Shown here: one piece after another, positions 28,544-30,327 of the stretch
Numbering within the stretch: the stretch's first letter is position 1
Layout: each line of letters begins with the position of its first letter
NCBI RefSeq assembly: GCF_016463295.1
Contig: NZ_JAEMRO010000001.1
Span: 124,001 to 188,000, forward strand
DNA length: 64,000 nt
Direction of reading: 5' to 3'
Source of the DNA: Brevundimonas sp.
GTDB taxonomy: Bacteria > Pseudomonadota > Alphaproteobacteria > Caulobacterales > Caulobacteraceae
Made by a program: the position numbers and the translations under genes
The notes under the pieces: model-generated
Databases searched by the model: none
Told to the model about the DNA's origin: nothing
The model's input: only the letters and a program-made list of their open reading frames with translations

Positions 28544-28566
28544 CGACCGTTCGGCGTCATGCCCCT

Positions 28567-28594
28567 TTGAACGGGGGAACGGATGCCCTATATT
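28567..28594 (+). promoter_or_regulatory. Candidate promoter of ssrA
   Basis: TTGAAC (28567-28572), 16-bp spacer, TATATT (28589-28594), just upstream of the tmRNA acceptor piece. Confidence 0.6.
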
Positions 28595-28599
28595 GATGG

Positions 28600-28892
28600 A
28601 GCCGGGGCTTGCTCCGGATATGGCGATAAACGCGCTTGTAATAAGCGGACCGGACCCGGGTGCGATTCCCGGCGGCTCCACCATTTCTCCCCGCGTTATC
28701 GGCGGAGGCATATGGGGCCGACTAGCATCGACGGACGTGTAAAGAAGACTGCTTTCGCTCGTCCTGGCCCACCGTATCGGGCCATTTTCTAACTGCGAAC
28801 GATAACTTCGCTGGGGAATACGCTGTCGCCGCGTAATGCGGTTCCGGTAATTCCAACTTAAGTCCTGGGGGTTCAGATCCTCAGGCGGGGCC
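28600..28892 (+). ncRNA. ssrA: Circularly permuted (two-piece, alphaproteobacterial) tmRNA; outer boundaries approximate
   Basis: Acceptor piece ends CCGGGTGCGATTCCCGG-CGGCTCC-A-CCA (CCA 28681-28683); coding piece starts GGGGCCG at 28714, pairing with CGGCTCC (28673-28679); tag ORF gcg aac gat aac ttc gct ggg gaa tac gct gtc gcc gcg taa (28795-28836) = ANDNFAGEYAVAA*. Confidence 0.93.
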
Positions 28893-28928
28893 GCCAGGGG
28901 GCCTGCCAACAGAACCCCTGGCACTTTT
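28893..28928 (+). terminator. Putative terminator of ssrA
   Basis: GCCAGGGG...CCCCTGGC hairpin followed by actttt. Confidence 0.65.
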
Positions 28929-28995
28929 CCCTCAAAAGCCACCTTTCGTCCGCCGCGCGGCCCCGCTACACCTCGCGCGAACACGAGAGCGATCC

Positions 28996-29484
28996 ATGGC
29001 CGAAGAGACGCCCCCCGTCGACGAGATGCACTATGACGCCCTGGCGCAGGATGCCTTGCGCGGCGTCATCCGGCTGGCGCTGGAACGGGCCGCCATGCCC
29101 GAGGGCATTCCTGGTGCGCACCATTTCTACATCACCTTCAAGACCCGCGCGGCGGGCGTCAGCGTGCCGCCCGACGTCCTGGCCAAATACCCCGAAGAGA
29201 TGACCGTGGTGCTCCAACATCAGTACTGGGACCTGACGGTGGAGCCGACGCGGTTTTCGGTCATGCTCAAGTTCGGCGGCATGCCCAAGGTCCTGTCCAT
29301 GCCCTATACGGCCGTGACGCGGTTCTATGACCCCTCGGTCCAGTTCCTGCTGCAGTTCGAGGAGCCGGTCACCGTCGACGAGATCGTGCAGGAGATCGAG
29401 GCGGCCGAGCCCGCCAAGGCTCCCACTCCAAGCGACGACGACGGCCCCAAGGTCGTTTCGCTGGACCAGTTCCGCAAGAAATAG
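28996..29484 (+). CDS. sspB: SspB-family ClpXP adaptor (alphaproteobacterial type)
   Basis: HFYITFKTRAAGVSVPPDVLAKYPEEMTVVLQHQYWDLTVEPTRFSVMLKFGGMPKVLSMPYTAVTRFYDPSVQFLLQF. Confidence 0.93.
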   Translation: MAEETPPVDEMHYDALAQDALRGVIRLALERAAMPEGIPGAHHFYITFKTRAAGVSVPPDVLAKYPEEMTVVLQHQYWDLTVEPTRFSVMLKFGGMPKVLSMPYTAVTRFYDPSVQFLLQFEEPVTVDEIVQEIEAAEPAKAPTPSDDDGPKVVSLDQFRKK

Positions 29485-29973: not shown

Positions 29974-30327
29974 TTATGCCCTCGGAAAAACCCGGATCGT
30001 GATCCGCTCCCGCTCGCCCTGGCGGCGCTCGACCAGCAGGCGCGCGACCTGGCTGTCGTCGTGGAACAGATAGCCCTTGATGGCGTCCAGCAGGGCCTTG
30101 GCCAGATTGTCCAGGTCCATCCACGGCGGATCGCCGATATGCTCCATCAGGATTTCGACCGTGTAATCGCCGTAGGACGGCCGCGACGACCACTCCTTGC
30201 GCATGAACTCATAGACCAGCGGCTTGTAGTATTTGGCCTGGGTCGTCAGGCCCTCGATGGTGATCTCGACGACGTCGCCGGTCTCACGCGCGCGGACCTT
30301 GCCGGTGCCGATCCAGCTGGCGGTCAT
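29974..30327 (-). CDS. RusA-like Holliday junction resolvase family protein
   Basis: MDLDNLAKALLDAIKGYLFHDDSQV resembles the conserved RusA acidic motif pattern. Confidence 0.75.
   Translation of the reverse strand: MTASWIGTGKVRARETGDVVEITIEGLTTQAKYYKPLVYEFMRKEWSSRPSYGDYTVEILMEHIGDPPWMDLDNLAKALLDAIKGYLFHDDSQVARLLVERRQGERERITIRVFPRA

Follow-up and report, generated by a model that had tools for sequence, protein, structure and literature searches.

A circularly permuted ssrA gene adjacent to sspB in Brevundimonas, and the variation of its tag within the genus

Does the 64,000-nucleotide stretch of Brevundimonas DNA analysed here (the window) carry the ssrA gene of its host, and is the tag that it encodes, which departs from that of Caulobacter, in any way out of the ordinary? 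The original prediction had described a circularly permuted ssrA, with the 3' half of the gene lying upstream of the 5' half. The Rfam covariance model alpha_tmRNA (RF01849, gathering score 50 bits) matches the forward strand of the window from 28562 to 28925 over its full length (model positions 1-355 of 355), with a score of 221.7 bits and an E-value of 6.9e-63 that rules out chance as the source of the ssrA structure, and direct reading yields the same order of halves. A second model, tmRNA_permuted (RF04321), also matches the locus at 124 bits through the tRNA-like domain and the tag frame, but this model is general and the comparison reveals nothing distinguishing. The span first assigned to the gene, 28600-28892, does fall within it, but omits an upstream promoter-like block and a 3' hairpin that the model includes.

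With a probability of roughly 0.98, the locus is a single ssrA gene in the circularly permuted form usual in Alphaproteobacteria, whose product, by analogy with known relatives, is predicted to be a two-piece tmRNA subject to alanine charging and active in tagging and ClpXP degradation. The anatomy and conservation of the gene are described below, and the same genome encodes both SspB and SmpB (PF01668, 184.5 bits). It is most improbable that the locus is instead a decayed or mobile-element copy distinct from the host ssrA: only one ssrA occurs in the genome (assembly 95.6% complete), the neighbouring genes are fixed among relatives, searches of phage records gave no match, and the stems are intact. 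The notion of a second or mobile ssrA was likewise rejected on copy number, conserved neighbours and phage records.

The acceptor piece region (28622-28683, forward strand), delineated by direct reading, the Rfam match and related loci, comprises a tRNA-like half with a T-arm, CCGGG-TGCGATT-CCCGG (28656-28672), the 3' strand of the acceptor stem, CGGCTCC (28673-28679), the discriminator A at 28680 and an encoded CCA at 28681-28683. The T-loop is identical in 170 of 183 related loci. The mRNA-like piece begins with the 5' strand of the acceptor stem, GGGGCCG (28714-28720). As originally proposed, the two strands pair over 7 bp with one G-U; this is the third pair, G3-U70, and together with the discriminator A it is present, with the same stem, in all 119 loci from the genus. 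All seven pairs are kept across the 183 related loci, G3-U70 without exception, and position 5 shows a compensated change from C-G to G-C in three distant loci. G3-U70 is a known identity mark for alanyl-tRNA synthetase, a role of the G-U pair that had been overlooked. Between the CCA and the 5' half lies a putative internal transcribed spacer of 30 nt (28684-28713), the removal of which is expected from known two-piece tmRNAs. Among the 183 related loci the length of this spacer varies, mostly between 26 and 33 nt, and its flanks are constant; variable length within fixed borders is the look expected of a processed spacer, and processing is predicted.

Upstream, a promoter-like element, TTGAAC-16-TATATT, occupies 28567-28594 on the forward strand, as a consensus match only, with one found where 0.2 were expected. 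In Rfam alpha_tmRNA this element is covered by the model's 5' unpaired block: at 28562-28600 the conserved block (CCUAUAUU) overlaps the -10-like sequence, and what is modelled as RNA may therefore in part be promoter DNA. At the other end of the gene, folding reveals a GC-rich hairpin at 28893-28922 with arms GCCAGGGG (28893-28900) and CCCCTGGC (28915-28922), followed by ACTTTTC (ACUUUUC in the RNA). The region 28885-28935 folds at -26.5 kcal/mol with a z-score of -2.45. A simple terminator scan does not flag the hairpin at 28893-28922. Nevertheless, a stem followed by a short U-run is present where a hairpin terminator had been placed, after the tag frame, and the hairpin is probably a terminator.

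The gene is readily missed by a standard tool. ARAGORN at its default settings does not report the window ssrA, which the Rfam models detect, and its output includes only 46 of 185 related tag-bearing loci, missing about three quarters. At a lowered threshold the window gene is found with the same tag, amid false calls. As the default settings overlook the majority of the permuted ssrA genes surveyed, annotations resting on ARAGORN alone will be incomplete.

The tag frame, ANDNFAGEYAVAA followed by the stop TAA, was read directly at 28795-28836 on the forward strand, in agreement with the location first given between the paired halves and the hairpin, and was also identified by tag comparison. 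Its codons are GCG AAC GAT AAC TTC GCT GGG GAA TAC GCT GTC GCC GCG TAA, and the frame ends in a hydrophobic-Ala-Ala degron. Counting the alanine carried by the tmRNA, the full tag is AANDNFAGEYAVAA. In comparison with the two-piece tmRNA of Caulobacter (RF01849), both genes are permuted, with a 7-bp acceptor stem containing G3-U70, an encoded CCA, a tag start of ANDNFA and an AVAA end; the middle of the tag is GEY in the window and EEF in Caulobacter, and the remaining differences are ordinary variation. The substitution, with retention of the AANDNF start and the AVAA end, had thus been read correctly, and the Caulobacter tag quoted for comparison is the established one. Its EEFAVAA ending is seen in Caulobacter loci L087, L097 and L107.

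GEY is less of an oddity than the original prediction implied. Among tags from 119 species of the genus, the window gene included, 50 are ANDNFAGEVRLAA, 50 are ANDNFAGEVALAA and 10 are ANDNFAGEYAVAA; the rarer forms are ANDNFAEEYAVAA (four), ANDNFAEEVRLAA (two), and ANDNFAEEIRLAA, ANDNFAEEFAVAA and ANDNFAEGYAVAA (one each). The commonest endings are therefore GEVRLAA and GEVALAA, at 50 each, with GEYAVAA a recurring minority of 10, and the Caulobacter-like EEFAVAA is found once. Position 8 is Gly in 108 of the 116 genus species with an aligned SspB; YAVAA recurs within the genus, and both G8 and the Tyr are found elsewhere in the Caulobacteraceae. Because GEYAVAA accounts for 10 of 119 tags and is scattered on the tree, GEY is neither unique nor lineage-wide, and the idea of a uniquely variant tag was rejected by this survey. 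The ssrA gene and its variant tag are real but ordinary, a confirmed instance of a known gene form.

The next gene downstream, on the same strand, is sspB (28996-29484; 162 amino acids; PF04386, E-value of 1.7e-40), which encodes the ClpXP adaptor for ssrA-tagged proteins and is the only sspB in the genome. Its adjacency had gone unremarked. The closest solved chains are 2QAS and 2QAZ, presumably both Caulobacter SspB, and alignment to 2QAS extends over residues 1-154 (E-value of 5.7e-56); the window protein shares PF04386 with these chains, and the divergence in sequence is ordinary. In both Caulobacter and E. coli, SspB delivers ssrA-tagged proteins to ClpXP. In the genus loci that yielded both genes, sspB shares the strand of ssrA and follows the tag stop at a distance of 150-353 nt, apart from a single locus in which the distance is 658 nt. 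Comparable distances separate the two genes in most loci from Phenylobacterium and Caulobacter, as well as in some Alphaproteobacteria further removed, with 1-2 kb intervening in several. The ssrA-sspB order is thus a genus-wide feature, shared by most of the other Caulobacteraceae examined. A literature search returned no open paper on this adjacency or on Brevundimonas tags, and the adjacency may already be published.

By analogy with characterized systems, tRNA-processing enzymes would cleave a single ssrA transcript and remove the spacer of about 30 nt. The two products, an acceptor piece charged with alanine and an mRNA-like piece, would stay joined through the 7-bp acceptor stem and a second helix of the tRNA domain. 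With SmpB, the tmRNA would enter stalled ribosomes and append the full tag to the unfinished protein. SspB from the adjacent gene would then bind the tag by its constant first half and pass the protein to ClpXP, which is expected to grip the C-terminal AVAA.

Why, then, do the tags differ? Across the 116 species for which SspB was aligned, ANDNFA (positions 2-7), E9 and the final two Ala residues (positions 13 and 14) are invariant, leaving the variation to the middle of the tag. Positions 10 and 12 are coupled in all 119 genus tags, Tyr or Phe with Val, and Val or Ile with Leu (loci L001, L013 and L002, for example). We placed the tags on a tree built from SspB and MiaA (85 rows, nearly all of them genus members, plus an outgroup locus), on which the tag types require 12 changes, as against 34.7 when shuffled. 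GEYAVAA by itself accounts for three changes, at least two of them forced by well-supported branches. One explanation is a specific functional adaptation, such as a tag with GEY for EEF coevolving with ClpX or the adjacently encoded SspB. The adjoining of tag and adaptor genes across the genus, the 10/12 covariation and the dozen or so switches of tag type all speak for it, but the variable positions fall outside the invariant ANDNFA half, and a Caulobacter with EEFALAA departs from the coupling itself. Moreover, SspB columns correlated with tag type do exist among the 116 species, but largely track shared ancestry: each tag position offers only two to four independent, well-supported contrasts, of which at most about one came with a difference in SspB. 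With 0-1 informative independent pairs, no SspB-tag association can be claimed, and we regard adaptation as unlikely.

Near-neutral drift in the middle and end of the tag, bounded by the SspB-binding half and the C-terminal hydrophobic-Ala-Ala, is the explanation that we favour, with modest confidence. Invariant ends around a variable middle and the scattered recurrence of GEYAVAA are both consistent with it. Against free drift, few combinations are in use and positions 10 and 12 covary, which together imply some constraint, perhaps at the RNA level. A bolder proposal gives the degron half in Brevundimonas two coupled states, aromatic-Ala-Val-Ala-Ala and Val-(Arg/Ala)-Leu-Ala-Ala, with repeated switching from one to the other beside a conserved sspB, perhaps as an adjustment to the local protease or adaptor. 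We consider this doubtful; if true, the rate at which rescued proteins are destroyed would be altered. Taken alone, the locus is of little consequence; the gene order and the ARAGORN misses are side results of modest use. With a degradation tag encoded beside its adaptor, the Caulobacteraceae lend themselves to testing, through natural variants, how well tag and adaptor match.

Two further observations concern sspB and its surroundings. An alphaproteobacterial-type sspB is present in two loci with discordant titles, L062 (Pseudanabaena biceps), which also has the ANDNFAGEVRLAA tag, and L109 (Bacillus sp.); these are probably contaminated or mislabelled assemblies. In the window, a gene of the RusA family of Holliday junction endonucleases, a family often found on prophages, lies between sspB and fumarase on the reverse strand (29974-30327; PF05866, E-value of 1.1e-11).
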